Of a stretch of DNA of 64,000 bases, positions 15,184 through 52,556 are shown one piece after another; positions within the stretch are counted from its first letter, which is position 1, and each line of letters starts with the position of its first letter. The DNA comes from Candidatus Rubneribacter avistercoris. GTDB lineage: Bacteria; Actinomycetota; Coriobacteriia; Coriobacteriales; Eggerthellaceae. Position numbers and translations under genes: made by a program. The stretch lies in contig DXCU01000075.1 in assembly GCA_019115845.1 (NCBI GenBank), positions 1 through 64,000 of the forward strand, in the 5' to 3' direction. The notes under the pieces are model-generated. The model searched no databases, had not been told where the DNA came from, and saw only the letters and a list, made by a program, of their open reading frames with translations.

Positions 15184-17913
15184 CTACTCGTTGACAACGG
15201 TCGGGTACGGAAGCGGCTTGTCCAGGTCGGCTGGCACTTCGCGTCCTTCGAACTTCTCCACCTGCACAACCACGGAGTTGAATCCCATAACCAGTGACTC
15301 GGCGAAGTACGATCCGTTGAGCGTGCTGTCGGAGGAGCCGAAGTCGATGCCGGTCTCCTCGTCCATCTCCACCCAGCCGCCGTGGGGGATGGCGCAAACA
15401 CCCTCCATGAAGCAGTCGTCGATGGAAAGATGGCGCACCACCTTGCCGTACGGGCTGGTCACCAGCACGGGGTCTCCGTCGGCAAGCCCCCGCTCGGCGG
15501 CGTCTTTGCTGTTCATGTAAAACGGGTTTGCGTACGCTTCGCGCAACCACGGGGTGTTCTCGAGGATGGTGTGCGCGCGGCGCAGATAGTGGGGCTGGAA
15601 GCACTGCAGCGGGTAGTCGCCCTTGGTCTTGGCGCCCCAATCGGAAAACGTCGCCTCGTAGTTGTCCTGCGACTGCAAGAACACGGGGTAGGGCTTGAAC
15701 TCGTGCGCGGACACGCCCATGAGGTTGAGTATGTCGGCGCGCGACTGGCAGTAGATCTCGAATTTGCCGCTTCTCGAAGGGAGCGGATGAGCCTCGGGAT
15801 CCGCGACGAAATCTTGGTAGGCGATCCATGTCCAGTTGTCGTCCTCGCGGCGGGGCACCTGGTAGCTGCCGGTCTTGATGAACTCGTCGTAGTCGATGAC
15901 GCCTTGCTGCGGCTCTCCTTCAAGGCCCAGCTCGTCTATCTTCTCCTGCGTGACGGTGACGAGGGGCTGTATGTCCGTGCCGTCTTCGGTGCGGATGGTG
16001 GAGGTCAGCACGGCGTCGAAGCGACGTTGCGCGTCGGAGCGGGTGTAGAACTCGCTCGGGTCCAAACCGCACTTCGTTGCGAGCAGCTCCACGAATTGAC
16101 GATCGCTCTTCGCTTCGTACAAGGGTTCGCACACGGTGCCCGGTATGAGCATGAAATCACGGTTGATCTGCGTGTTTATCATACCCGTTTCGTATTCGGC
16201 GTTCTCCCAGCGCGTCGTGCAGGGCAGCACGATGTCCGAATACTGCGCCGTGGGGCGGAACTGCCAGGTGTGGCACACCACCAGGTCGAGCCCGCGGAAC
16301 ACCTCGATGGCCTTGTTGATGTCCATATTGGTGGAGAAGCCCTCGTTGTTCTGGGCGAAGTACGCGCGGATGTTGATGTCGCGCTCTTCGGGTTCAACGA
16401 TGGAGGACGATCCGTCGGCGTAGCTGATGGTTCCCATGTAGCGGTAGCTTCCCTTGAGCACGGCCGACCACATCTCGGGTCCGGTGATGGCGTCGTCGTT
16501 GGGGTTGGCTATGGTGAGCGTGCCGATGGCACTGTTTCCCGTGGTCATGGATGCCAGATCGGGCAGGGGTGCGCCGCACTGCACAATGGCCTCGCCGGAG
16601 TTGCCCGCCGAGAAGCTGAAGATGCCGCCGGTGGCGTTGCCCGGCTTTCCCAGGTGGCCTCCCATGCAGCCGATGGTAAGGAACAGCTGCGGGAAGTACT
16701 CCGCCCCGTTGTAGCGTGCCGCCGCGTAGCTGTGCAGGTTCATGACGTTGTTGTCTTTGGCTTGCAGGCGGGCGTACCATTCGATGTCCTCGATCGGCGT
16801 GCCGCAGTACTCGGTGGCCCACTGGGGGGTCTTCGGCTGGCCGTCGTAGACGCCCAGCACGTAGTCGTGGAAATTCTCGTTGACGGTGGCGTCTGCGGGC
16901 ATGCTCTGGGCGTCGAAGCCCACGCAGCACCGATGCAGGAAATCCCAATCAAGGATGGAGCCGTCCTCGTCTTCGGTGATCATCACGTAGGCGACGGCCA
17001 AAAGGAACGCAGTGTCGCTGCCGGGTCGCACCCGTATCCAGCGCGCGTCAAGCGTGGAGGCCGAGAAGTTGTAGTCGGGTCCCACGTACACGAACTCGGT
17101 TCCGTTCTCCTTGGCGCGCATGAAGTGATACATGGGGTTGCCCGCCGAGCACCAGGCCGGATTCGCCGAATACAGCACGATGGTGTCGGCGTTCAGCAGG
17201 TCGAGCCGGTCGTTCGACCCGTTGATGTCGGGGTTGATGGCGTAGGTGATCCCCAAGTTCGGCGTGCCGACGAAGTAGGAGCCGTACGAGTTCGAATTGA
17301 GGAACGGGATATGGCCTCCCAGCTGGTCGAGCACGTTTTCGAGCTGCGCCCCCGCGTAACCGCCGATCATGATGGATCGGTTTCCGTACTCCGCATAGAT
17401 CCGGTCAACCTCCTGCGCGATCATCTCGCACGCCTCGTCCCACGAGATGCGCTCCCACTCGTCTTTGCCGCGCAGTTCTCCGTGGATGTTCTCGCCCCCG
17501 CCCGGCTGCCAGTGCACGCGCTTCATGGGGTACTTGATGCGGTCGGCGCCGAACAGATGCTGGCGCTGCGCGCGGCCGCGCGGGCAGGCGCGCTGCTGGG
17601 GCAGTTCGAAGGTGTCCTCGTGCGTGTCGTCGGTTTTCACGCGCGTCACGATGCCGTCCACGGTGTAGGCGCGCAGCATGCAGCGGCTGCCTCCGCAGTT
17701 GTGCCAGCAGGGCACGGTCACCCACTCGCCCTGCATGGTCGGATCGAACTCCGCATCAAGGCGGTGTCCGTCGGCGGAAACCCCCTGCGTGGGCCTATCG
17801 GCCTCGACCGCGCGCAGCTCGTTTTCTGAGCTGCAGCCGGTTGCGATCACCGCCGCGCTTGCTGCTGCGGCCGCCGCCACGAAGCTCCGTCTTGAGATGG
17901 GGATGGTGCTCAT
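15184..17913 (-). CDS. DmsA-like Tat-exported molybdopterin oxidoreductase catalytic subunit
   Basis: Tat signal ISRRSFVAAAAAASAAVIATGCSS; CWHNCGGSRCMLRAYTVDG...CPRGRAQRQHLFGADRIKYPMKR; GNATGGIFSFSAGNSG; typical length. Confidence 0.93.
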   Translation of the reverse strand: MSTIPISRRSFVAAAAAASAAVIATGCSSENELRAVEADRPTQGVSADGHRLDAEFDPTMQGEWVTVPCWHNCGGSRCMLRAYTVDGIVTRVKTDDTHEDTFELPQQRACPRGRAQRQHLFGADRIKYPMKRVHWQPGGGENIHGELRGKDEWERISWDEACEMIAQEVDRIYAEYGNRSIMIGGYAGAQLENVLDQLGGHIPFLNSNSYGSYFVGTPNLGITYAINPDINGSNDRLDLLNADTIVLYSANPAWCSAGNPMYHFMRAKENGTEFVYVGPDYNFSASTLDARWIRVRPGSDTAFLLAVAYVMITEDEDGSILDWDFLHRCCVGFDAQSMPADATVNENFHDYVLGVYDGQPKTPQWATEYCGTPIEDIEWYARLQAKDNNVMNLHSYAAARYNGAEYFPQLFLTIGCMGGHLGKPGNATGGIFSFSAGNSGEAIVQCGAPLPDLASMTTGNSAIGTLTIANPNDDAITGPEMWSAVLKGSYRYMGTISYADGSSSIVEPEERDINIRAYFAQNNEGFSTNMDINKAIEVFRGLDLVVCHTWQFRPTAQYSDIVLPCTTRWENAEYETGMINTQINRDFMLIPGTVCEPLYEAKSDRQFVELLATKCGLDPSEFYTRSDAQRRFDAVLTSTIRTEDGTDIQPLVTVTQEKIDELGLEGEPQQGVIDYDEFIKTGSYQVPRREDDNWTWIAYQDFVADPEAHPLPSRSGKFEIYCQSRADILNLMGVSAHEFKPYPVFLQSQDNYEATFSDWGAKTKGDYPLQCFQPHYLRRAHTILENTPWLREAYANPFYMNSKDAAERGLADGDPVLVTSPYGKVVRHLSIDDCFMEGVCAIPHGGWVEMDEETGIDFGSSDSTLNGSYFAESLVMGFNSVVVQVEKFEGREVPADLDKPLPYPTVVNE

Positions 17914-34657: not shown

Positions 34658-35797
34658 ATGCCCAAACATGCCTCAAACGAACCACGCGGCGCTTCAAGCG
34701 GCAAGAACGATTTCGACTCCGACGAGCGCATCGGCCTGACAGAGGCTTTCCCCGCCGTGCAGCCCTCCGACCCCAAGGCCGGGGAGGACGGGCGCATCGG
34801 GCTCACGGAGGCCTTCGCCCCCGTGGCGGCCGGCGAAGGGGCCCACGCCGGAGGGTTCAGCTACCAGGGCGACAACGACGACGAGTACCCCGACGCCTTC
34901 GAGAGCCTCGAGCCGGTGGAGGCGCCGCCGCTGCTGTTCGACGACGCTCCCGCTCCCGAGCCCAAGCGGACCCGGGGTCGCCACGGCAAGGAGCGCAAGC
35001 CTCCCGTTCCGCCGCATCAGCGCAAGTCCCGCCGGATGCGCAAGATACTCATAGCCATCGTGGTGCTGCTCGTGCTGCTCATCGGCGCCTTGGGGTACTT
35101 CGTCTGGCAGTGGTTCCAGGAAAGCCAGCTGGTGGCCGCTCAGCAGGCCCAGGAGCAGCAAAGCTCGCAGGAGGTGGGTTCGCTGCAGCAGGACCAGAGC
35201 GAGACCAAGGACGCCAGCACCACCGTGTCCAAGAAGACCGAGGCCCCCTCGCTCACGTCCCTTCTGGGCATGACCAAGGACCAGGCCATCGAGTCGCTCA
35301 AGCGCGGGGCGACCGAGACCAGCTCCAAGGAGGTCAACGAGGAGGGCAACCCCGTCAAGACGAACGTGACGGTGGCCCTGACTGACGAGCCCGCCGACAC
35401 GCGCTCGGGCACTCCCACGGTGTATCTGGGCCTGAGCGAAGAGGGCGCGGTGGTGCAGGCGGGCTATTCGGCCGCCACCGCGTCATTGGGCTATGGCTCG
35501 CTCAGCTTCGTGGATGCGGTGCAAAACGAGCGCATTGTGGAGAAGACCCTGCAGGAGGCGGGCGTCAGCGTGGCCGAGGGTTCGGTGGAGCTTCCCGCCG
35601 ACAAGTCGGAGTACTCCGAGTACGCCAGCGACGGCACCACGCTTGTGAAGGAGAGCTGTTCGTTCTCCGGCACGGTGGAGTTCAACGGGGCGCCGCACGA
35701 GTGGTCCTCGGTGTTGCTCTACGACTACGCCACGGCCAACACCTCCGGCAACCTGGCCGACACCGTTCGCATCATTTACGTCTACGTGAACGCGTAG
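34658..35797 (+). CDS. Single-pass membrane protein of unknown function
   Basis: 379 aa; acidic N-terminal region with duplicated RIGLTEAF, TM (ILIAIVVLLVLLIGALGYFVWQWF), extracytoplasmic domain. Confidence 0.7.
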   Translation: MPKHASNEPRGASSGKNDFDSDERIGLTEAFPAVQPSDPKAGEDGRIGLTEAFAPVAAGEGAHAGGFSYQGDNDDEYPDAFESLEPVEAPPLLFDDAPAPEPKRTRGRHGKERKPPVPPHQRKSRRMRKILIAIVVLLVLLIGALGYFVWQWFQESQLVAAQQAQEQQSSQEVGSLQQDQSETKDASTTVSKKTEAPSLTSLLGMTKDQAIESLKRGATETSSKEVNEEGNPVKTNVTVALTDEPADTRSGTPTVYLGLSEEGAVVQAGYSAATASLGYGSLSFVDAVQNERIVEKTLQEAGVSVAEGSVELPADKSEYSEYASDGTTLVKESCSFSGTVEFNGAPHEWSSVLLYDYATANTSGNLADTVRIIYVYVNA

Positions 35798-36336: not shown

Positions 36337-36503
36337 GGGGCGTCCTTCCGGTTGTTGTGCGTTTGGGGCAGTATAGCAGACGCCCATCGTGCTCGCGCGG
36401 CAAAACCGCCCCCGTGCGCCAGATGGAGGGGTTATCCCTTTTCCTGCCAAATCGCTGCTGCCGCGGGCTTGTGCCGGCGGCAGGCCCGACAGGGGGAGGT
36501 CCC

Positions 36504-36661
36504 TTCCGCTGTTAAACCAGGATTGACATAGGCCAGGCCGGTTCGCCGGGCAAAACCCTACCCGTCAGGCGGGGAGGGCCTTGCCCGGCGCCCGACCAGG
36601 GAAGGCTCGGTTCGAGATTCGGCAAACACCGGTTCGTGCCAACGGTGGTTTAACAGCGGAA
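36504..36661. repeat. Inverted repeat element A
   Basis: ttccgctgttaaacca (36504-36519) / tggtttaacagcggaa (36646-36661), perfect 16 bp. Confidence 0.65.
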
Positions 36662-36673
36662 AGCCCCTCCGGT

Positions 36674-36823
36674 GGCGAGAAATCACCGAAGTCGGAAGAT
36701 TTCAGGGAGCGCGGGCGGCCCTGGGAGCCTCTTTCGGATGGCGGATCTCTTCCGATCAGGCGTTTTGCTCATGCGGCGGCGGGTGGTGACGGAAGGGCTT
36801 TCCGACTTCGGTGAATTCTCGCC
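36674..36823. repeat. Inverted repeat element B
   Basis: ggcgagaaatcaccgaagtcggaa (36674-36697) / ttccgacttcggtgaattctcgcc (36800-36823), 23/24 match. Confidence 0.7.
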
Positions 36824-37110
36824 ATGCGGCTCGTCGCCCGCCGTTCTCGCCGCAGCGCCGCAACGCCCTGCCGCCCGCAGCCGCCCTTCGCGCCGCGCCG
36901 CGGCCGTCGCCATCCTTTTCGCGCCCGCATGCCGCGCCCGCGACGCCGTTCCCTGCGGTAGGTTGAATTTCAAGATGCAACAGCGTTGCGTTCGACCTTG
37001 CAGCGACGAAGTCCGCAGGCCCCTGCGCGCCGCTTGGCACCGCGGGGGTTTGCGTCCGGGAGCAGGGCGTGGTACCATCGGACCGACCGGACAAATAGCC
37101 TGGTTTTTCT

Positions 37111-37136
37111 CGAAGGATGCCTGCGGGCATCCTTCG
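37111..37136 (+). promoter_or_regulatory. Stable leader hairpin upstream of the sipW operon
   Basis: cgaaggatgcc-tgcg-ggcatccttcg perfect 11-bp stem, ~68 nt before the GTG start. Confidence 0.55.
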
Positions 37137-37203
37137 TTCGTTTAAGGGGAAGATGAGCAAAGGGTAGTCTTTGGGAGCCTTTCCCGATCGGAGGAGGAGG
37201 GCC

Positions 37204-37818
37204 GTGCAGGCAGACAGCGGACATGCGGATGCCGTGAGGATTGTCATCCGGGAGGGCAAGCCGCCTTTTGCGGCGCGGGCGCTCCACGGGGTGGCGGCCT
37301 TGCTGTGCCTGGCCATGCTGGCGGCGCTGTGCCTTCTGGCCGTGCCGCGGCTCTTTGGGGTGCACGAGTTCAACGTCACCTCCTCTTCCATGTCGCCGGC
37401 CTACCCGGTGGGATCGCTCGTGTTCGCCGTGCCCGTTGATCCGGCTTCCGTTCGACCGGGCGAGGTGGTGTCGTTCGTCATGAACGAAGACTTGGACGTG
37501 GCCACCCACCGCGTGGTGGAGAACGACTACCAAAACGGCCGTCTTGTGACCAAGGGGGATGCCAACGCCAACCGCGATGACCCCATTCTGTACGAGAACG
37601 TGGTGGGCGTGGTGCGCTTCTCCGTTCCGATGGCGGGCGGCGTGATCGACAAGCTGTCGAACGACCAGGCGGGACGCATGGCCGCTGCGGGCGCGGCCGT
37701 GTGCCTGGTGGTTTTGGTGGTTTGCCTGGAGGTTGCGGCGGGGCTGCTCTCCCGCAGGCAGCCGACCGTCTCCGTCGCGTCCGCCGACGGCCTTGCGCCG
37801 AAAGGGGGCCTGCGATGA
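37204..37818 (+). CDS. sipW: SipW/ER-type signal peptidase I
   Basis: FNVTSSSMSPAYPVGSLVFAVPVDPASVRPGEVVSFV (catalytic Ser) and DVATHRVVENDYQNGRLVTKGDANANRDDP (His-type dyad); N- and C-terminal TM. GTG 37204. Confidence 0.9.
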   Translation: MQADSGHADAVRIVIREGKPPFAARALHGVAALLCLAMLAALCLLAVPRLFGVHEFNVTSSSMSPAYPVGSLVFAVPVDPASVRPGEVVSFVMNEDLDVATHRVVENDYQNGRLVTKGDANANRDDPILYENVVGVVRFSVPMAGGVIDKLSNDQAGRMAAAGAAVCLVVLVVCLEVAAGLLSRRQPTVSVASADGLAPKGGLR

Positions 37819-38468
37819 TGGGCGGCCTTCGGAAGTCCGCGCCTGCGGCGTGCGCGGCCGTGGCGGCGTGCGCCGTTGCGGCGGCCCTATGCCTGCTGCT
37901 CGCCGTGCTGGCGCCCCTTCCGGGCACGGCGGCGTTCACCTCGGCCACCGCGAACAGCGAGCCGAACGCCTTCACGCTGGGCAGCGTGAAGATACGCCTG
38001 GTGGAAAACGACGTGCCGGCCGAAGGCGCCGAAGCCGACGTCCCCTTTGGCGAGGATGCCAAGAAGGTCCAGGTGGAATGCATCGGGCGCAACCCGGCGG
38101 TGGTGCGCGCGTACCTGTATCCGGACGTGGCGGAAACGGACGGCACGAGGATGTGGGCCGCGCAGGATTGGTCGGAGCCGCAGGACGGCCGCATGAGCCT
38201 GGGTCCCGTGACGCTGCACTTGGCGCAGGGCTGGGAGCAAAGCTGGACCTATCGCGACGGCGCCTTCTACTACCGAAAGGTCCTGCAGCCCGGGCAGACG
38301 ACTGAGCCGCTGCTTGCCGGGGTCACCCTGGCGGACGGCGTGGACGCGGCCGCCTTGGGCGGGGTGGGGGTGGCGGTTGCGGCCGAGGCCGTGCAGGCCA
38401 GCCCCAGCGAGGCACCGGCGACGTGGGGCTGCACGGTCGGCGACGACGGCAGCGTGGAGGTGGGCTGA
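37815..38468 (+). CDS. SipW-associated camelysin/TasA-like exported protein
   Basis: Hydrophobic signal ending GTAAFTSATANSEPNAFTLGSVKI; GRNPAVVRAYLYPD; YRDGAFYYRKVLQPGQTTEPLLAGV; 4-nt overlap with sipW. Confidence 0.72.
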   Translation: MMGGLRKSAPAACAAVAACAVAAALCLLLAVLAPLPGTAAFTSATANSEPNAFTLGSVKIRLVENDVPAEGAEADVPFGEDAKKVQVECIGRNPAVVRAYLYPDVAETDGTRMWAAQDWSEPQDGRMSLGPVTLHLAQGWEQSWTYRDGAFYYRKVLQPGQTTEPLLAGVTLADGVDAAALGGVGVAVAAEAVQASPSEAPATWGCTVGDDGSVEVG

Positions 38469-38600
38469 ATGGCTCGCTTCGCGCCACGTATACGGCCTTC
38501 GGTGTCGCGCCGGCGGCGCTCCGGACGGGGGCGCGACCGCCCGCCGTAGCAGTGTGCGCACAGGATGCAGGGGTCACTGATGAAAAAGAAGGAGGAACCC

Positions 38601-39512
38601 ATGGAAAACCAAAGGCAAGACCCGGTCATCGTGGTGGAGAGGACCGAGCGCAAGCGCAGCAAGGGCCTGATGGCGGGCGTGCTGGGCGCAGCCCTGGTGG
38701 CGGCGCTCGGCGTGGGCGGCACGCTCGCGTACCTGACCTACACCACCAATCAGGAAAAGAACAGCTTCACATCCAACCCCAACATCACGGCCGATTTGCT
38801 GGAGCCTGAGTGGACGGCGGGCGCAGCCGAGGGGGATGCGAAAGACGCCCCGGATGGCTCGAAGATGCCTCTGGAGGCCGACAACATGATCCCCGGCAGC
38901 GAGGTGGCCAAGAACCCGTTCGTGGTGAACACCTCCGTCAACGGGGCGAAGGCGTGGGCCGGCATCAAGCTGCAGTTCGAGAAATGGAACGGTTCGGGCT
39001 ACGTCGCTATGACCGATGATGAGATGGGCAAGGTGCTTAAGGTGTACTCGCTGTACGCCACAGGCAAGAATGCGGATGCTGGCATCGTGTCGGCGGACGG
39101 CTGGACGGAGAGTACCGGCGATGCCGCAGATGGTGCGAGATACTTCTACTACGCCACTGCGCTCGAGGCGGAGACGGCGGATGAATTTACGGGCGAAAAC
39201 GATACCGATGCCTACCGCAACATCCCCGCAACCAAGCGCACCGTGGCGCTCTTCGACAAGGTGAAGTTCCTTGAGACCGCCACGCAGGCCGACATCGACG
39301 CCTTGAATGACGCTCTCAATCCGGGCGACGCGGTGGACGATCCGAGCTGGCGCGTGACAGTGACGGGCGCGATCATCGGCGCCACGGGCGCCGCGAGCGA
39401 GACGGCCGCCACTTTCGTCACTGAGACGGCCGGCGTGTCGTGGAAAGGCGTCCTTGACGCCGCAGCGGCTCCGGCCGCAGGCACGGGCGTCAGGACCCTG
39501 GTTGTTCCGTAA
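38601..39512 (+). CDS. TasA/camelysin-like SipW-dependent exported protein, candidate major fibre subunit
   Basis: SipW-type signal LMAGVLGAALVAALGVGGTLAYLTYTTNQEKNSFTSNPNI; NPFVVNTSVNGAKAWAGIKLQFE. ATG 38601 with aaggagg SD. Confidence 0.78.
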   Translation: MENQRQDPVIVVERTERKRSKGLMAGVLGAALVAALGVGGTLAYLTYTTNQEKNSFTSNPNITADLLEPEWTAGAAEGDAKDAPDGSKMPLEADNMIPGSEVAKNPFVVNTSVNGAKAWAGIKLQFEKWNGSGYVAMTDDEMGKVLKVYSLYATGKNADAGIVSADGWTESTGDAADGARYFYYATALEAETADEFTGENDTDAYRNIPATKRTVALFDKVKFLETATQADIDALNDALNPGDAVDDPSWRVTVTGAIIGATGAASETAATFVTETAGVSWKGVLDAAAAPAAGTGVRTLVVP

Positions 39513-39524
39513 GGCGCTCATCGC

Positions 39525-40241
39525 GTGGCCCGGGTGTACGACATAGCCCTTGAACGCCCCGTCCGGGGAAGGCGCGTGGTGCTCGCGGCGGCTGCTGCTG
39601 CCGTCGCGCTCGCCTGCGTCCTCCCCGGGATTGCGGGCACGCAGGCCTACTACGGGGCCAATGATCGCGACACGCACGTGTTCGTGCTGCCCGACGTGCG
39701 CATATCGCTCACCGAGCAGTGGGACGTCCAGGACGGCCTGGGCCTTGCCCCCGGCACCACCGTGGTCAAACGGCCGGTGGTGGCCAACGACGCGTCGCCG
39801 TGCTACGTGCGCGTCGTCGTGCGGCTTGCGGACGCGAACGGCGAGGCCCTGTCTCCCGACGCCTGCCCCGAGCGCTACCGGGCCATCATGGGAACGCTTT
39901 GGAGCGACCCTGCCGACCGCATGGAGGCGGGGCGGCCCTACTCCGCAAGCGAGCTGGCATCCCTGGAGGGCGTCGGCCAACTTTACGACGCCGAGTCCTT
40001 CCGCGAGCCGTACTACGACGCGTCCGTGGGCGGGCTTGTGTTCGAGCACGAGGGCGTGCTGGGCGCAGGGGAGTCGTGCGAGCTGTTCGCGAAGGTGTGC
40101 GTCCCGTCCGACTACACGGTACATGACATGGCCCTGATGGGCGACTACGTGCTGGGCATCCAGGCGCAGGCTATCCAAGCCGCCGGATTTAAGGACCAGC
40201 AGTCGGCCATGGAGGCCCTGTCCAAGGAAGGATTGCTATGA
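39525..40241 (+). CDS. Second TasA/camelysin-like exported protein
   Basis: Signal VLAAAAAAVALACVLPGIAGTQAYYGANDRDTHVFVLPDVRISLTEQWD; VVKRPVVANDASPCYVRVVVRL; GTG start. Confidence 0.7.
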   Translation: MARVYDIALERPVRGRRVVLAAAAAAVALACVLPGIAGTQAYYGANDRDTHVFVLPDVRISLTEQWDVQDGLGLAPGTTVVKRPVVANDASPCYVRVVVRLADANGEALSPDACPERYRAIMGTLWSDPADRMEAGRPYSASELASLEGVGQLYDAESFREPYYDASVGGLVFEHEGVLGAGESCELFAKVCVPSDYTVHDMALMGDYVLGIQAQAIQAAGFKDQQSAMEALSKEGLL

Positions 40242-41023
40242 GGGCCTCGCGTGCGAAAAGGACGCTGGCGACCGCCGCGGCCGCGCTGTTCGCGGCAGGG
40301 GCGATCTGCCTGGTTGCCGGGGGCGCCGCGCTGGCCTCGCCGTCGGCGGCAGAGGGCGCCGGGGACTATTTCGACGGGCGCCTTGTGCAGAAATGGGGGC
40401 AGGAAGGGCCCGTGCCCGCCTATCCGGGCATGACCGTGGAGCGCGACGCCCGGGCGGTGAACGAAGGGAGTGCGGTCATGGCGGCCCGCATGCGGTTCGA
40501 GAAATCGTGGGGCAGCCTGGAGGACGGCGCGTGGACCGCCTGCGACGACGGGTCGCTGGACGAGTCGCTCATAGAGGTGGAGCTGCCCGAGGGCAGCGGC
40601 TGGGTGGACGGCGGCGACGGCTGGTACTACTACGAGCGTCCCGTCAATCCCGGCGAGAGCACAAACGCGTTCATATCCACCTGCTCCATATCCGAGCACG
40701 TGGGCGAGGACGCGCACGTGGGCGAGGCCAGCGCGTACTCGGGCAAGGCGGCCCGGGTGGACGTCTACCTTGAATGCGCCCAGGCGTTCCAAGAATCTGC
40801 GGACGGGCCGGCAGAGAGCGCGTCTGCAGGCGGCGAGCAGGTGGTGCACAGGCTTCTCCGGTCGGTGACGGCCGCGTTCGCCCCCAAGACGGGCGACGGC
40901 GCGCTTGCGGGCTTCGCCCTGTGCGCCGCCGCATGCGCGCTGACGGCGGTTTCGGTCATCCTGCTTGCCTTGGCCCTGCGCCGCGGAAAAGACGACGACT
41001 CCCCAAGGACGGTGTCCTTATGA
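40238..41023 (+). CDS. TasA/camelysin-like protein with C-terminal sorting-like signal (APKTGD + TM + basic tail)
   Basis: YPGMTVERDARAVNEGSAVMAARMRFEK; GWYYYERPVNPGESTNAFISTCSI; tail APKTGDGALAGFALCAAACALTAVSVILLALALRRGKDDD; ATGA overlap upstream. Confidence 0.72.
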   Translation: MRASRAKRTLATAAAALFAAGAICLVAGGAALASPSAAEGAGDYFDGRLVQKWGQEGPVPAYPGMTVERDARAVNEGSAVMAARMRFEKSWGSLEDGAWTACDDGSLDESLIEVELPEGSGWVDGGDGWYYYERPVNPGESTNAFISTCSISEHVGEDAHVGEASAYSGKAARVDVYLECAQAFQESADGPAESASAGGEQVVHRLLRSVTAAFAPKTGDGALAGFALCAAACALTAVSVILLALALRRGKDDDSPRTVSL

Positions 41024-44000
41024 ACGCGAATCCGAGAACGCGCGCGGCCGCCGTTTGCGCGGCGGCGCTGCTGTTGGCCGCAACCCTGCTCTGCGCGGCG
41101 CTGGCGAAAGGCGGCATCTCGCGCGCATGGGCCGAGGATGGCGCCGTTTCTCTGGCGACGAACCCGGTGTGCCGCATCGTGGGCGGCGACGAGTACGATT
41201 CGCTCGCTCAGGCCGTTGCGGCGGCGGCATCCGGCAACACCATCGAGATCACCGCTAGCAACACCGTGGCACAGGCCATCGATGCCGGAGGCAAGGAGCT
41301 TACGCTGCGAAACGCCGACGGCGGGGCGCACGTCACGACGTTTTCCGCAGCGGGCTCTTTGACCACGTCCGGGAACTTCACGTTGGGCGCATGCGTCCTC
41401 GACGGCGGAAGCGCTTCGGGCACCACTCGAACCTCAGCCCTCATCACCGTGAACGGCGGCTCGTTCACCATGGACGGCGCCACGGTGCGCAACGTGACCA
41501 ACACCAACGCCAGCACCGCCGCTGCAAACCCGGGAGGTGCTTTCGGTGTGGCGGCAGGCACGCTCACCTTTGCGAGCGGCACCATTGAAGGGTGCCGTGC
41601 TGCATCCGGGATCAATACATACGACACGAATGGGGGCGGCTCCGTGGCGCACATTGCCTCGGGGGCGACCTTGGTCATGCAGGAGGGAACGTCTATCTCG
41701 GGCAGTGGGTCATATGACAAAGACTCCTCTGTCCAAGGCTCTCCTATCTGTGTGCGTGGCATGTTTCGTATGGAGGGTGGAAGCATCTCTGGCAACACCA
41801 GTGTTTGCGGGGGAGCGATCTACTGCACAGAAACCGGCAATGCGATTCTGACCGGCGGATCAATTGTGAATAACAATGCTTCCAGCAGTCCGACCAGAGG
41901 AGGAGACGGCGGTGCGATGTTCCTTGCGGCGAACGCGAGGGCCACAGTGGGCGGTGATGTGCTGATACAGGGAAACTCGTCCACTCGAAGTGCCGGAGCC
42001 ATTGCAATGCGCAACGGTGCGTCGCTTTCCATCGAAGGCGGCACCATAACGGGCAACAACACGGGAGGCGAAGCCTCGGAGGTTGTCGCGCCGTTCTACG
42101 GCGCCGTGTCCAGCCACGGAGCGGGCAACATAGCATCCGTCTCCCTGAGCGGTTCTCCGGTCATCGAGGGGAACACCTACAAAGGCTCCACCCCCGCCGA
42201 CCTTTCGGTGTCGGCGGCGAGCACGTTGACGGTTGGGAAACTGGAGCCGGGCGCGCACATCGGCATCTACGCCGCCTCGGGCATTGACGCTGCGGGCCAG
42301 CAGTTCGCCACGGGCGCGGACGCCGCGACGTCTTTGGGCGACCTGTCCGCTTTCTTCAGCAACACGCGGTCCGTGTCGGGGCGCCCGCTCATGGGCGCGG
42401 CGGGAGACGGCACCGCCATCATCTGGGAGAACCCGCCCATCTGCAAGATAGCCTCCGCCGACGGAACGTCGGCTGTTGCGTACAACTCGCTGTCCGCCGC
42501 GTTCTCCGCTGCCGTGGCGCAAGGCGGCGCGACCATCGAGATGCTAGTGGAGTCCTACGATCTGACCTCCTCGCTTGACGTTGGGGGTTTGGCGGTGGAC
42601 GTTGTGCTGACCACGGCCAAGACGGAAGGGGAGGGCTGCGCGGACGGCTACCCTTATGAAGGCGATGCTGAAACCCCCTGCACCATCAGGCGCGCGTTCA
42701 GCGGGGGCAGCATGCTCATGGTCGGAGGCGGTGGAGGGTCTCTGTCGTTTGTCGACCTCACGCTCGACGGCAACGCGGCCTCGTACACGGGAACGGGCGG
42801 CAGTGTCATCAGCGCTTCGAGCGGTGCTTCTGTGTGGTTAAGAGACGGATGCATCATACAAAACGCGCTGGCAGACCCCGGAAGCGGGGCTGCGGCCACC
42901 GCCAACGGGGGCGCGGCGGCTCTGGCCGATCAGGGCACGACGCTTCGCATGGAATCCGGTGCTGTTGCGCAGAACTGTCAAACAAAGGGTAGCTGGGGCG
43001 GCTTTCTGTATCAGGGTCCTAACACGTCGTTCATTGCAACAGGCGGCACAATACGAAACTGCGGCACCACCATAGCGGCCAGTTCGGGCGGTGCGATATT
43101 TGCGAACACCTCCTGCGTGACAGAGCTGGGTGGGGACTTCGAGGCATACGGCAACTACGCCTACGAGCATGGATCGTTCTGGCATGGGTTCAGCTCGACG
43201 GTTTTGCGGCTGAAGGGTTCGGCGAGCATTCACGACAACGACATAAAAGCCGCTGCCGCGAACAAAGAGGGTAGCGCGCTGTACACCTACGGGGCTATCG
43301 TCGAGATAGAGGGGTCCCCGACGGTCGCCGACAATCACCAACTGGATAACACTGAGTGCAACATCCACGTCACAGCCGATTCCCAGATCAAGGTGACGGG
43401 CAGTCTCACGGGTGGCGAAGTGGGCATTTACTTCTCGGCGCGGAGTGCGGCGGGAAACACGTTTGGCAAGGCATACGCGGGTTCCGCAGAGACAACGGCC
43501 ACCAATCTGACGGGCCTTTACCATCTGAAGAACGACATCACCGCCGGTTTGTCAGGCGCGCCGGGAACGGGATCCGCCGTCATCTGGGCCGCCACTCCCA
43601 TCTGCAAAATCGTGGACGGCGGCGTGGCTGCGCCGTACTCCACGCTGACCGCCGCAGTGGCCGCCGCCAAACAGAAGGGCGGCAACGTAACCATCGAGAT
43701 GATTGTGTCGTCCTACAGCATTGGCACCGCGTTCGCTTTTGGCGCGCTTACGGGTGGAGTGAACATCACCGTCACCACGGCGAAGACGATCGACGAGGGC
43801 TGCGCGGACGGCTATCCCTACGAAGGCGCCGCCGATGCTCCGTGCGTACTGCAAAGAGCCTTTGCAGGTGGCGTCATGTTCACGGTCACGGGCGCCTCCG
43901 GCGGATCCGTGTCGTTCGCCGACATCATCCTAGATGGTAACGGGGGCACATACACCGGCGGGTCGGGCAGCGTCATCTACGGGTCGGGCGGTGCGGCTAT

Positions 44001-45123
44001 CTACCTGAAAGACGGCTGCACCATCAGGAACGCGAAAGCCAACGCCAACGGCGGGGGAGCGTACCTGAGGGACTCGGGCACGACGCTGTACATGGAACCA
44101 GGATCGCTTGTGGAGGACTGCCAGACGAGTGCGATATACGGAGGTTTTCTCTACCAGGCTGCATCCACCTCGTTCGTCGCGACGGGCGGCACGGTGAGAA
44201 ACTGCAAAACCACCCTGTCGAGCGGTTCGGGCGGGGCGGTGTTTGTGAGCGGCAGCTGCATAACGGATCTGGGAGGGGATTTCCAGGCGTACGGCAACAG
44301 CGCGGCCGCCAACGGATCGTTCTATCACGGATACGGCGCCTCGTCTGTCATCAGGCTCCATGGAACGGCGAGCATCTGCAACAACACCAAAACGGGAACG
44401 GGCTACACCGGCTCCGCCATTTTCACGTACGATTCCCGTGTCGAGTTGTGGGATTCCCCGACGGTAACGGACAACTTCCAAGCGAACGGCTCCACCGAAA
44501 TGAACATCTACACCGACAACTTTGCCGAGATCAAGGTGATGGGCAACCTGACTGGCGGCGAGGTGGGCATTTACTCCACGTACTACACGAAGGGCGCCCA
44601 GTTCGGCACGGCGTACGCGGGGTCTTCAACCACGACGGCCGCCAACCTGACGGGCCTCTACCGCCTGACGAACGACCGCAACGACGAGTTGGCCGGCATG
44701 GCCGGCTCGGGCTCGGCGGTGGTGTGGGGCGTGGTGAAAGACATCCCCGTGCAGATCATCCAACGCGTTTCGGAGCCGCTTGACCACGACGCCTGGTTTG
44801 TCGTGGAGGTGCGGGACGCGGGCGAGCAGAACGCCTACCGCCAACCTGTTCTGGTGAGGGCCGGCCAGACGGAGGGGAGCGCGACGGTCATGGCGAAGTC
44901 GAGCCGGCCCTACTCCTTCACCGACGTGGAGCAGGCTCGTCCGTGGCGGCAAGGCAAGGCGGCCGTCACGTACGCGGGTCCGGAGTCCGTCTCGGCGAGC
45001 GCGGGGTCCGCGACGGCCACGTTCACGGACGCCACGGCCTCGCGGACGCTCACGTTCTCCTCTTCCGAGGAAAAAACGCAGTGGCTCTCCGACAGCGCGT
45101 CGGTCCGCAACGCCATGCGGTAA
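41020..45123 (+). CDS. Large secreted beta-helix surface protein with three internal modules
   Basis: Signal RAAAVCAAALLLAATLLCAALAKGGISRAWA; Gly/Ser/Thr-rich beta-helix repeats; modules begin at Cys codons 41170, 42442, 43603 (CRIVGGDEYDSLAQAV / CKIASADGTSAVAYNSLSAAF / CKIVDGGVAAPYSTLTAAV); ATGA overlap with upstream gene. Confidence 0.85.
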   Translation: MNANPRTRAAAVCAAALLLAATLLCAALAKGGISRAWAEDGAVSLATNPVCRIVGGDEYDSLAQAVAAAASGNTIEITASNTVAQAIDAGGKELTLRNADGGAHVTTFSAAGSLTTSGNFTLGACVLDGGSASGTTRTSALITVNGGSFTMDGATVRNVTNTNASTAAANPGGAFGVAAGTLTFASGTIEGCRAASGINTYDTNGGGSVAHIASGATLVMQEGTSISGSGSYDKDSSVQGSPICVRGMFRMEGGSISGNTSVCGGAIYCTETGNAILTGGSIVNNNASSSPTRGGDGGAMFLAANARATVGGDVLIQGNSSTRSAGAIAMRNGASLSIEGGTITGNNTGGEASEVVAPFYGAVSSHGAGNIASVSLSGSPVIEGNTYKGSTPADLSVSAASTLTVGKLEPGAHIGIYAASGIDAAGQQFATGADAATSLGDLSAFFSNTRSVSGRPLMGAAGDGTAIIWENPPICKIASADGTSAVAYNSLSAAFSAAVAQGGATIEMLVESYDLTSSLDVGGLAVDVVLTTAKTEGEGCADGYPYEGDAETPCTIRRAFSGGSMLMVGGGGGSLSFVDLTLDGNAASYTGTGGSVISASSGASVWLRDGCIIQNALADPGSGAAATANGGAAALADQGTTLRMESGAVAQNCQTKGSWGGFLYQGPNTSFIATGGTIRNCGTTIAASSGGAIFANTSCVTELGGDFEAYGNYAYEHGSFWHGFSSTVLRLKGSASIHDNDIKAAAANKEGSALYTYGAIVEIEGSPTVADNHQLDNTECNIHVTADSQIKVTGSLTGGEVGIYFSARSAAGNTFGKAYAGSAETTATNLTGLYHLKNDITAGLSGAPGTGSAVIWAATPICKIVDGGVAAPYSTLTAAVAAAKQKGGNVTIEMIVSSYSIGTAFAFGALTGGVNITVTTAKTIDEGCADGYPYEGAADAPCVLQRAFAGGVMFTVTGASGGSVSFADIILDGNGGTYTGGSGSVIYGSGGAAIYLKDGCTIRNAKANANGGGAYLRDSGTTLYMEPGSLVEDCQTSAIYGGFLYQAASTSFVATGGTVRNCKTTLSSGSGGAVFVSGSCITDLGGDFQAYGNSAAANGSFYHGYGASSVIRLHGTASICNNTKTGTGYTGSAIFTYDSRVELWDSPTVTDNFQANGSTEMNIYTDNFAEIKVMGNLTGGEVGIYSTYYTKGAQFGTAYAGSSTTTAANLTGLYRLTNDRNDELAGMAGSGSAVVWGVVKDIPVQIIQRVSEPLDHDAWFVVEVRDAGEQNAYRQPVLVRAGQTEGSATVMAKSSRPYSFTDVEQARPWRQGKAAVTYAGPESVSASAGSATATFTDATASRTLTFSSSEEKTQWLSDSASVRNAMR

Positions 45124-45385
45124 GAACGCCCCTCGCACTTGCCGCCCCTGTCCTGCGCTCGCCTGCTCCGTCTGGCGGGCGCAGGTCCTCAACCGCTTTT
45201 TGAACCAGCGGCAAAGCCCCGCCCTTCAAATGCTCCTCTTGCTACAATCATTCTCGATTTCGCAGATCAATCGAAGGAACGCGTTGCAAAGGGTTGCCAA
45301 GGGCAACCCCTGCGTCAGCATTGCCGCCAAAGCTGCGCCCGGCCTTGGCGGCGCGACTTAAAGAGAGGGGGGGAGGGAGGTGCGC

Positions 45386-45769
45386 ATGTAGATAACGACC
45401 GACTATGCCATTCGCATAGTCGTCTACCTTGCAACGACTCGCGGCGTGCGCACCGCCCAGGACATCGCCGAGCACGTGGGCCTGTCGTCTGTCAACGTCG
45501 TGCGCGTGGTGCAGAAGCTTCTGGCCGCCAAGGTGGTGGCGTCCCAGCGCGGCCATACCGGCGGGTACCTCCTTGCCGCATCGCCGGATGAGATCACCTT
45601 GCTTGACGTGGTGGAGGCCATGGAGGGAAACGCCGCCTGCAGGGCGCTGAACTCCACGGAGGCGGAGTACTTTCCCCGGACGGTGTCTCGGGACCTTTAC
45701 CGGCGCGTGGACGACATGCTGGCCTCTGTGACCTTCGGGGCGCTCGTCCAGGAGGGCTGGCCGCGCTGA
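45386..45769 (+). CDS. Rrf2 family transcriptional regulator with in-frame TAG at codon 2
   Basis: ATG TAG ATA ACG ACC GAC TAT GCC then ITTDYAIRIVVYLATTRGVRTAQDIAEHVGLSSVNVVRVVQKLLAAKVVASQRGHTGGYLLAAS, a complete Rrf2 wHTH apart from the TAG. Confidence 0.72.
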
Positions 45770-45883
45770 GGCGGCCGCAAGCGCGCCCGCTTCTTCCGGC
45801 ATCGCCTCGGACGGCGGCTCCAAGGGGATCGGCCCTGCAGGCGACGGCCTGGATGTCGGCTTCGGCGAATTTGCGGAATCTCC

Positions 45884-49634: not shown

Positions 49635-52556
49635 TCAAACCTCCTCGTAAACCGGCAGCCAGCGCCTCAGCCTCTCGTCGTCGGGCGAGGAGATGATGGG
49701 CGTGCCGTCTTCGGTGGCGCGGGGGACGGGGTCTCCGTAAGGGCTGTTCTCGGGCGTGGCCTTGTACACCTTCACGAGATAGGCGCGCAGGCACGTCGAT
49801 CCGATGATGGGGTCTTGGTCGTACTGGTCCACCATGACGTTCGCGTTCGCCAGGTCGAATCCGTGCGTGGGAGCGGGAAGCTCGGGGTACCACCAGCCGT
49901 GGTCGGCCTCGATGACGCCGGGCTTTATGCCGTAAAACAGGTCGGCCACTTCGCGGATCTTGCCGCGCGGCGATTCGATCCAGCACCAGTCTCCCTGCTC
50001 GATGCCCAGCTCTTTCGCCGTCTCGGGATTGATTTGAAAGCACGGGACGGTGTACTGTTCGCGCAGCATGGGCACCTGGCGGCCTTCGGAGTGGAAAAAC
50101 AGCGGGTTTCGACGGCCCGACGTGTAGATGATGGGGTACTCCTCGTACACGTCGGGCGTCGAGCGCGGGCTCTCGCTTGGCTCGCGCGCGACGGGCCATT
50201 CCTCGCCGGGGTACAGCGATTCGAGGACGGTGGAGAACAGCTCGAACTTGGTGGAGGGGGTGCCGAAGCCCGGAAGCCCGTCTGTGCGGATGTAGCCGTT
50301 GATGTAGCGCTTGTAATACCCGATGGGACTCACTTCGCGCAGGTTCCACTGGCCGTGCTCCTGGTACTGCCGCACGGCGTCGTCCCAGTTTTCGAAGGAG
50401 AGCCTCTCGCCGTTGTGGCCGGGCAAGTTCATTCCCTTCACGACGGGCAGCACTTCAAGCTCGTGCATGAGCTGCTCGGTGGGGTATTCGTGCTCGAGCC
50501 ACTCTTCGGGCCAAAACGGCGGCGCGAACTCCTTTTTCGTCGGCCACCAGCCCAGACCAAGGGCTTTTGCGACACGCACGCAGGTGATGGCGTCCCACTC
50601 GGCTTCTCCTATGTGGTCGACGACGGGCACCATGATCCCGTAGCCCTTCTCGCCGCCCTGCGACGAGCGGACGCATCCGATCTCGAGGAAATGAGCTGCC
50701 GGGGTGATGATGTCGGCCAGCTCGATGGTGGGGGAGAACCACAGTTCGGACCCCCAGTAGAAGTCGAGGGTCTTGTAGGCCTCCCAGTTCGCCATGGCGT
50801 TGCCGCTGTGGAAATGGGAGCCCGTGTCGGAGATCATGCAGCGTATGGGATAGGGGTCGCCGGTCAGGATCATGTCGGTGGCCGTGGTGGTGTCGTGGAA
50901 GTTGGCGGCGCCTTGGCACTTGGTGGCCCACGGCAGCAAGGGGAACTTCTCGACGCCGGCTATCTTCTCTAGCTCGCTCAGCGGCAGCGAGGGCTGGCCG
51001 AAGGGGATGCAGTACATGAAGTAGTTGCCGTAGTTCCCATCTTGGCCGTGTCCGCCCACGTTGCCGCCTACGTTGTCGACGTTGCCCATGAGCGCCGACA
51101 GGGCGAGGATGGCGCGCGTCGTCTGTATGGAGTTGGCGGCGTGCTCGGTGGGGAGGTTGTACTGTATGCCGCCCAGGTTCGGCTCGGCGCAATAGATGTC
51201 GACGGCTTTGCGCAGCGCTTCCTCGGGGATCTCGCAGATGTCGGCGACGGTGGCGGGATCGTACTGGGAGACGTGCTCGCAGTACTTCTGCCATACGGGA
51301 ACGGCGGTGACAGTGGAGCCGTCCTTCAGGGCGACTTCGTAGGATCCTGTGAGAGCCGGATCGATGTCGAGCGCGAACCCGGGATCGACCACGAGCGTTC
51401 CGGTGTCGTTGAGTCCTGCCGGAACGAATTCGGTGGGGGCGTTGTACTCGGTTTCGCCCTCCCAAAGGGCGGTCTCGGAATCGAAGTAGATGGGTTTGCC
51501 CGAGCGCGCGTCCCATACGAGGAACCTGCGGGGGCTGCCGCCCTCTTTGACGTCGGCCTCCGTGAGCAGGCGTGTCCTAAGTTCGAGGGGGTAAGACCCC
51601 ACGGACGCTTCGTAAGGGGCGTAATCCCACGTGAAAGAGGTCGGTTCTTTCTCGTCCGCGTACAGAAACGGGGCGTTCGTCCATTTTTTGACGAAAAGCT
51701 CGTCGTAGGTTCCCTTCTCGTTCACCAGCAGGTTGATCATGCCCAAGGCCAGGAAATCGTCGGTGCCGGGGCGCAGGTGGATTTGAAGGTCGGTTTCCTT
51801 GCCAAGGCCCTGCGTGCGGGGCCCGACGCAGATGGACGCTTCGGCGGCGACGGCCGCGTCCACCGTGACGCGTCCGGCGTTGTCGTAGTTGGACACCTCT
51901 TGGTCGGAGCCCCACTGGAAGAACACGCGAGGATGATCGGACAGGCATGTCCAGTGAACGCCCATGTACGCGGTGAGGGCGCCGGATATCTCGCGGGGTC
52001 CCTTGCAGATCTGGCCGGCCGTGTTCCCGATGTTGGCCGTCTGCAGGCCTTGGGAGAGGCCCTCGATGCCGTAGGTGGTGATGCGGCTCGTGCCGTGCAG
52101 GATCTTCACGGTGTGGTTGCCGTATTTCTCGCGGCACTCCTCCACGCCTTTGGCGATGGCTTCTATGGCCTCGTCCCATGTGATCCTCTGCCAGCCCGGA
52201 TCTTCGCCTTTGGGGTTCGTCCGCCGCATGGGGTACTTGACTCTGTCGGGGTGGTAGAGCTGCTGGTGGGCCGTGCGCCCTTTGACGCACAGGTTGCCTC
52301 GGCTGGTGCACGAGCTCTCGTCACCCTCGATGCGTATCACGCGTCCGTCTCTGACGGTCACCCATGTCGGGCATTCCATTTTCCCGCAGGCGCGGCAGAA
52401 GCTGCGGATGCGCTTCGTTTCGCCGGTGGCGCCGGGATCTCCGGAAGCGGTTTCGGCGAGCGCCGGCATGGGCGACGTCGAGGCCAGGGCCGCGCAGCCG
52501 GCCAGTGCGGTTGAAAGCTTCAGGAAGCTGCGTCTGGATAGGCTTATCTTGCTCAT
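49635..52556 (-). CDS. DmsA-like Tat-exported molybdopterin oxidoreductase
   Basis: Signal LSRRSFLKLSTALAGCAALASTSPMPALA; CRACGKMECPTWVTVRDGRVIRIEGDESSCTSRGNLCVKGRTAHQQLYHPDRVKYPMRR. Confidence 0.93.
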   Translation of the reverse strand: MSKISLSRRSFLKLSTALAGCAALASTSPMPALAETASGDPGATGETKRIRSFCRACGKMECPTWVTVRDGRVIRIEGDESSCTSRGNLCVKGRTAHQQLYHPDRVKYPMRRTNPKGEDPGWQRITWDEAIEAIAKGVEECREKYGNHTVKILHGTSRITTYGIEGLSQGLQTANIGNTAGQICKGPREISGALTAYMGVHWTCLSDHPRVFFQWGSDQEVSNYDNAGRVTVDAAVAAEASICVGPRTQGLGKETDLQIHLRPGTDDFLALGMINLLVNEKGTYDELFVKKWTNAPFLYADEKEPTSFTWDYAPYEASVGSYPLELRTRLLTEADVKEGGSPRRFLVWDARSGKPIYFDSETALWEGETEYNAPTEFVPAGLNDTGTLVVDPGFALDIDPALTGSYEVALKDGSTVTAVPVWQKYCEHVSQYDPATVADICEIPEEALRKAVDIYCAEPNLGGIQYNLPTEHAANSIQTTRAILALSALMGNVDNVGGNVGGHGQDGNYGNYFMYCIPFGQPSLPLSELEKIAGVEKFPLLPWATKCQGAANFHDTTTATDMILTGDPYPIRCMISDTGSHFHSGNAMANWEAYKTLDFYWGSELWFSPTIELADIITPAAHFLEIGCVRSSQGGEKGYGIMVPVVDHIGEAEWDAITCVRVAKALGLGWWPTKKEFAPPFWPEEWLEHEYPTEQLMHELEVLPVVKGMNLPGHNGERLSFENWDDAVRQYQEHGQWNLREVSPIGYYKRYINGYIRTDGLPGFGTPSTKFELFSTVLESLYPGEEWPVAREPSESPRSTPDVYEEYPIIYTSGRRNPLFFHSEGRQVPMLREQYTVPCFQINPETAKELGIEQGDWCWIESPRGKIREVADLFYGIKPGVIEADHGWWYPELPAPTHGFDLANANVMVDQYDQDPIIGSTCLRAYLVKVYKATPENSPYGDPVPRATEDGTPIISSPDDERLRRWLPVYEEV

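Follow-up and report, generated by a model that had tools for sequence, protein, structure and literature searches.

A SipW-linked gene cluster in an Eggerthellaceae genome predicts a BsaA/TasA-type surface fibre with a giant, conserved-tail adhesin-like protein

A six-gene cluster of Candidatus Rubneribacter avistercoris (Eggerthellaceae) probably encodes a SipW-processed surface fibre of the BsaA/TasA type, carrying a giant adhesin that docks via its C-terminal tail. The cluster occupies positions 37204-45123 (+ strand) of the analysed stretch of 64,000 nucleotides, hereafter the window, in a source genome of 3.2 Mb. It consists of sipW (p1) and five further genes, p2 to p6, all co-directional, with open reading frames verified at the coordinates given below. 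Our reading draws on the gene order, the homologies and export signals of the products, the anchor of one subunit, the modular head and conserved tail of the giant, and the constant linkage of that tail to clusters of this kind. A preliminary description of the same DNA had proposed a SipW-linked surface fibre or matrix locus with a giant beta-helix adhesin-like protein, and homology and architecture supported that proposal. The six co-oriented genes and three ATGA overlaps that it listed are all present; the 4-nt overlaps are exact and lie at 37815-37818 (p1/p2), 40238-40241 (p4/p5) and 41020-41023 (p5/p6). Through the latter two, p4, p5 and p6 are predicted to be translationally coupled.

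The first gene, p1 (37204..37818, +), starts with a GTG codon at 37204, preceded by the Shine-Dalgarno sequence ggaggaggag, and encodes a signal peptidase of 204 aa with two hydrophobic segments. Its product scored 77.5 bits, over the cut-off, against TIGR02228, the NCBIfam model for signal peptidases of the SipW/archaeal type, and 49.5 bits, below the cut-off of 190, against the Bacillus SipW equivalog NF046067. In an alignment of 15 SipW homologues, S62-M63-x-P65 and H102 were invariant; p1 is a peptidase of the Ser-His type, in agreement with its earlier designation as a His-type SipW signal peptidase. In a profile search, SipW was found over cut-off in 59 of 140 Eggerthellaceae genomes. 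A search of GTDB, one genome per species, was made with a six-sequence SipW alignment, as a wider alignment was too diverse for a pattern scan; it gave 80 loci, nearly all in gut Clostridia. The SipW of the window grouped with those of L132, L135, L018 and L063 (support 0.64-0.72), in a tree whose resolution is too low for a transfer to be dated or rooted.

The next four genes encode exported proteins of 217, 303, 238 and 261 aa: p2 (37815..38468), p3 (38601..39512), p4 (39525..40241) and p5 (40238..41023), all on the + strand. All four matched one Clostridial protein encoded next to SipW (L108:10610-11218), with E values of 2e-14, 1e-7, 6e-7 and 8e-9 for p2 to p5, respectively, and we therefore assign them to one superfamily; that protein itself matches TIGR04090 (BsaA; 52 bits), TIGR04088 and, weakly, TasA (2e-4). 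Against the family models, p3 exceeded the cut-off of TIGR04088 (SipW-dependent signal protein; 21.6 versus 19), while p2 and p5 reached 29.4 and 26.4 bits against TIGR04090, both below its cut-off of 60 bits. NCBIfam gave no match for p4, whose homologues were found by direct sequence comparison, and none of p2 to p5 matched its TasA equivalog (NF046066). Separate orthologues of all four were found in a cluster of another genus (L018): for p2 a protein of 237 aa (E 9e-17), for p3 one of 314 aa (E 2e-15), for p4 one of 271 aa (E 7e-15) that passes TIGR04088, and for p5 one of 445 aa that also ends in APKTGD and scores 64.7 against the TIGR04090 cut-off of 60. Because these orthologues recur gene by gene, the subunit types are maintained separately and the cluster is more than a chance arrangement, although the gene order in L018 differs from that of the window. 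A further homologue of p4 was present in L140 (E 3e-10).

The candidate major subunit, p3, has a SipW-type signal and no Cys. It is separated from p2 by a 132-nt gap and has the best ribosome-binding site of the cluster, features that fit the most abundant product; its translation more likely starts at ATG 38601, with aaggagg a few nucleotides upstream, than at 38565. When its AlphaFold model (pLDDT 71) was compared with 350,542 PDB chains, the TasA fibre 8aur ranked first, at a non-significant Foldseek E of 0.01 and a TM of 0.20-0.24, and a sequence search for TasA in the PDB with the subunit profile returned chance matches only. Since the structural match reaches an E of only 0.01, the case for a TasA fold in p3 comes mainly from the sequence links. 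The signal of p5 is more ordinary (ALA-S) than SipW-type. The tail of p5 (40880..41020, +) consists of APKTGD (40880-40897), a hydrophobic segment and RRGK, and resembles a sortase signal or a stop-transfer anchor; this is the sorting-like tail that had been attributed to one subunit, and it would place p5 in the membrane or wall.

The four exported proteins had initially been called camelysin/TasA-like. Membership of the BsaA/TasA superfamily holds for p2 to p5, but the link to camelysin itself comes down to a match of p3 to Peptidase_M73 at an E of 0.1. That weak similarity bears on the idea that the products form no fibre and are separate, SipW-exported and membrane-tethered surface proteins, for example camelysin-like metalloproteases or inhibitors, and a camelysin metalloprotease ancestry has been proposed for TasA (PMC9674648). 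However, the specialised subunit types are inherited together with an anchor and a giant, and filaments are formed by those BsaA-family and TasA proteins that have been characterised (PMC7395162, PMC9674648), so that we regard a locus of fibreless surface proteins as quite improbable and prefer a fibre.

The last gene, p6 (41020..45123, +), encodes a giant of 1367 aa with an ordinary signal peptide, three beta-helix-like modules and a CnaB-like C-terminal tail. Module 1 covers aa 49-472 (41164..42435), module 2 aa 473-859 (42436..43596) and module 3 aa 860-~1232 (43597..44715), the last being a close paralogue of module 2, with about 55% identity. In the AlphaFold model of p6 (pLDDT 63.7), short strands are stacked into ladders. 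Nearly all of the top-ranking PDB structures for this model are beta-solenoids (tailspikes, GH28/GH87, CE8, NosD), none reaching E<=1e-3. Sequence searches of Pfam and the PDB gave no match, and the 140 Eggerthellaceae genomes held no full-length homologue. Of the initial view of p6 as a 1367-aa beta-helix protein, the length, the internal modules and a solenoid-type model were borne out, but sequence or significant structural matches were not obtained. That p6 attaches the cell to mucus or glycans, as was also suggested, is a guess.

The C-terminal region of p6 (aa 1233-1367; 44716..45120, +), which ends in TQWLSDSASVRNAMR, resembles a CnaB-like tail found at the ends of giants in other SipW clusters of Eggerthellaceae and Clostridia, with the pattern LTIxK ... 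GxYTVTE ... WSWRY ... TN-x6-WLxG-x5-N (alignment A3). With a model built from 26 giant ends, p6 being left out, the last ~125 residues of p6 were matched at an iE of 7e-7 and aligned to the very end. In A3, p6 keeps the tail end WLSDSASVRN, including the W and the final N, while the near-invariant K/E/N triad of the tails is replaced by Q/D/S. These are positions at which CnaB domains form their internal isopeptide bond. The tail of p6 is the most diverged among those aligned. As a family, the tails match the CnaB parts of VWA-type surface proteins of solved structure (7vcn, 7vcr) and of a pilin, BcpA (3kpt), at E 3e-5 to 9e-5. A mixed alignment of p6 modules and tails (A5) was discarded, as the tails had been threaded into the modules.

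We then considered where such tails occur. The 140 whole Eggerthellaceae genomes yielded 16 full-length tail matches, two of them in the source genome, and all 16 sit in SipW/TasA-like clusters, a linkage test with some circularity, as the tail model already contained the majority of these giants; the matches in G123, G124, G137 and G157 belong to giants outside it. Twelve tails lie within 8.3 kb of SipW, and the remaining four sit at the ends of contigs with TasA-like subunits alongside, together with an anchored subunit where the contig extends far enough. Matches that stopped short of the WL..N end were ordinary CnaB-like repeats. The corresponding scan in Clostridia, covering 29 genomes of SipW loci, found three tails beyond the model loci (L177, L178 and L179), all amid TasA-like subunits, two of them beside SipW and one adjoining a PDTGD-anchored subunit-like gene.

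The heads joined to these tails are diverse, all of them of adhesin or glycan type. VWA heads were found in the giants of L109, L121, L122, L140 and L156, Sgo0707 and AgI/II (C2) domains in those of L020 and L033, and InlB-type repeats in those of L068 and L177. In the giant of L130 (6073-10212), a tail of this kind carries a GH20 beta-hexosaminidase domain, an enzyme that is possibly displayed on such a fibre. Clear beta-helix heads occur in L106, a Clostridial MAG with PMP repeats, and in L025, from another Eggerthellaceae, so that the combination of this tail with a beta-helix head recurs, p6 being one case. The types of head, and the tail as the sole part that the giants share, suggest a position of p6 at the tip of the fibre, and the constant linkage of the tail despite changing heads would be hard to explain unless the giants dock. 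In the likeliest rival explanation, the genes specify a matrix (pellicle) of the BsaA/TasA type, and p6, free or separately bound, acts outside the fibre as an independent secreted matrix or glycan-binding protein. C. perfringens BsaB and BsaC are secreted accessories dispensable for BsaA polymerisation (PMC7395162), the signal peptide of p6 is an ordinary one, and proteins with beta-helix folds often act as enzymes or as unattached glycan binders. On the other hand, every full-length tail belongs to a SipW/TasA-like cluster, however completely the heads differ, and p5 and p6 are probably coupled in translation. We consider such an independent p6 unlikely, albeit with a chance worth bearing in mind, and prefer docking of the giant to the fibre.

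The sorting-like end of p5 and the homology of the tail to the CnaB domains of sortase pilins would also suit a sortase-type pilus, in which p5 and the CnaB-like tail are polymerised by a sortase and SipW is merely a dedicated signal peptidase. The source genome has four sortases, and some Lachnospiraceae SipW genes adjoin LPXTG pilin-like genes. The sortases, however, are on contigs C43, C52, C3 and C45 and none is on the cluster contig (C54), p2, p3, p4 and p6 have no sorting signal, and the subunits belong to the BsaA/TasA superfamily. With neither a sortase nor LPXTG backbone pilins in the cluster, we rejected this candidate as highly improbable.

In the preferred model of a SipW-processed fibre with a docked giant, p2, p3 and p4 would have their SipW-type signals removed by SipW at the membrane, and the freed N-terminal strand of each would complete the sandwich of the next subunit by donor-strand exchange. 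The model follows two characterised systems: the N-terminal strand of TasA completes the next subunit (PMC9674648), and both the secretion of BsaA and its filaments require SipW (PMC7395162). By analogy with these, p3 would form the bulk of the fibre, and p2 and p4 would be minor subunits or adaptors; p5, which would have the same fold and a C-terminal transmembrane/sorting anchor, would form the cell-proximal base; and p6 would be the adhesin. The latter would be exported by its ordinary signal peptide and dock to the fibre via its CnaB-like tail with the WLxxx..N end, most likely at an end or adaptor position, so presenting the long beta-helix head to a surface ligand, either glycan or protein.

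The closest characterised system is sipW-bsaABCRSD of C. perfringens, which likewise has sipW first, BsaA-family subunits and several more secreted proteins, namely one fibre protein and three further secreted ones (PMC7395162). It differs in its two-component system, bsaRS, which has no counterpart in the window, in that no giant beta-helix/CnaB-tail protein has been described for it (PMC7395162), and in the APKTGD-anchored subunit, which is a feature of the window cluster. The tapA-sipW-tasA operon of B. subtilis shares the dedicated SipW, the TasA-type signal and weak fold and sequence links to TasA, whereas no TapA homologue was identified in the window cluster, which has more subunit types, an anchored subunit and a giant, with a SipW far below the equivalog cut-off and no match to the TasA equivalog. 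The B. cereus locus sipW-tasA-bc1280-calY has one additional gene besides SipW and two subunits of the TasA type, and an anchored subunit is unreported there (PMC4292775). Sortase pili with VWA/CnaB tip adhesins resemble the Clostridial giants in their head-plus-CnaB layout and p5 in its transmembrane/sorting-like end, but the window cluster has TasA/BsaA-type subunits in place of a sortase and LPXTG backbone pilins. Judged by gene content and model scores, the cluster is classed with the SipW/BsaA/TasA-type loci, and neither with sortase pili nor with the strict Bacillus equivalogs.

The expanded subunit set had been taken as the mark of a distinct system. This did not hold up, since SipW clusters of Clostridia and of other Eggerthellaceae usually have three to six subunits and C. 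perfringens already has several (PMC7395162); nor is the system unique, in view of the frequency of SipW in the family and of matching clusters in gut Clostridia. What distinguishes it is the conserved tail of the giants, the swappable heads and the acquired block described below. No description of such clusters in Eggerthellaceae or gut Clostridia was found in the literature searched, from which most subscription papers and all preprints were excluded; within that scope the fibre chemistry is known, and the conserved tail with interchangeable heads is undescribed. TasA/BsaA fibres are, to our knowledge, known as biofilm scaffolds and not as pili with a dedicated adhesin. We tentatively suggest, at somewhat less than even probability, that gut anaerobes widely possess a class of adhesive pili independent of sortase, in which fibres of the TasA/BsaA type, formed through strand exchange once SipW has cleaved the subunits, are tipped by giants with interchangeable heads (VWA, beta-helix, GH20, antigen I/II-like) on one conserved tail. 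The tail, which at full length was found only with SipW/TasA-like clusters in two phyla, would mark adhesins riding on such fibres. Sequence searches can detect it in any genome, and it makes attachment of gut Clostridia and Eggerthellaceae by TasA-type pili experimentally testable.

Other arrangements were seen among the related loci. The commonest order in Clostridia was sipW-subunits-giant-subunit (12 of the 80 loci). The source genome has, on another contig, a second SipW cluster of different arrangement (L017, G000:C17:9000-23812), which encodes a tail-domain giant of 1924 aa, BsaA-like subunits and a protein of 616 aa that ends in LTKTGD. In many Lachnospiraceae and Oscillospiraceae (L087, L113, L134, L142, L147, L152, L157, L162 and others), the neighbours of SipW are two small subunits and pilin-like LPXTG proteins of 500-900 aa; by gene neighbourhood, these loci form a second, sortase-linked class of SipW loci.

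The cluster lies in an acquired block of ~9.5 kb (36351..45881) between a DUF454 gene and infC. Window position 36350 maps to 16841, and 45882 to 17060, in one congener (G001), with 218 bp between them, and a second congener (G002) has unrelated genes at the site. As the block is missing in both, the cluster is accessory and occupies a variable DUF454-infC site, which looks like an insertion hot spot. By eye, the genes at this site in the second congener (G002:C67, L173) include one for an apparent oxidoreductase with a Tat signal and one for a regulator of the LuxR type. Within the block and immediately downstream of the cluster, we noticed an Rrf2-family regulator (45446-45769, +), a candidate regulator of the cluster; the match begins at profile position 25, and the N-terminus may be truncated or mis-started. 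Ahead of the cluster, a perfect 11-bp hairpin followed by TTCGTTT (37111..37136, +) ends 68 nt before the sipW start codon and could be an attenuator or read-through terminator in the sipW leader. The leader as a whole folds no more stably than its shuffles (z -1.07) and matched no Rfam family; a sigma-70 promoter scan was empty, and a terminator scan gave counts at chance level, this hairpin excepted. Elsewhere in the window, a membrane protein (34658-35797, +) carries the N-terminal motif RIGLTEAF-[PA]-[AP]-V twice and shows a weak SpoIIIAH-like match, and two large Tat-signal proteins (15184-17913 and 49635-52556, both on the - strand) appear by eye to be molybdopterin oxidoreductase-like, each with ferredoxin-like partners.
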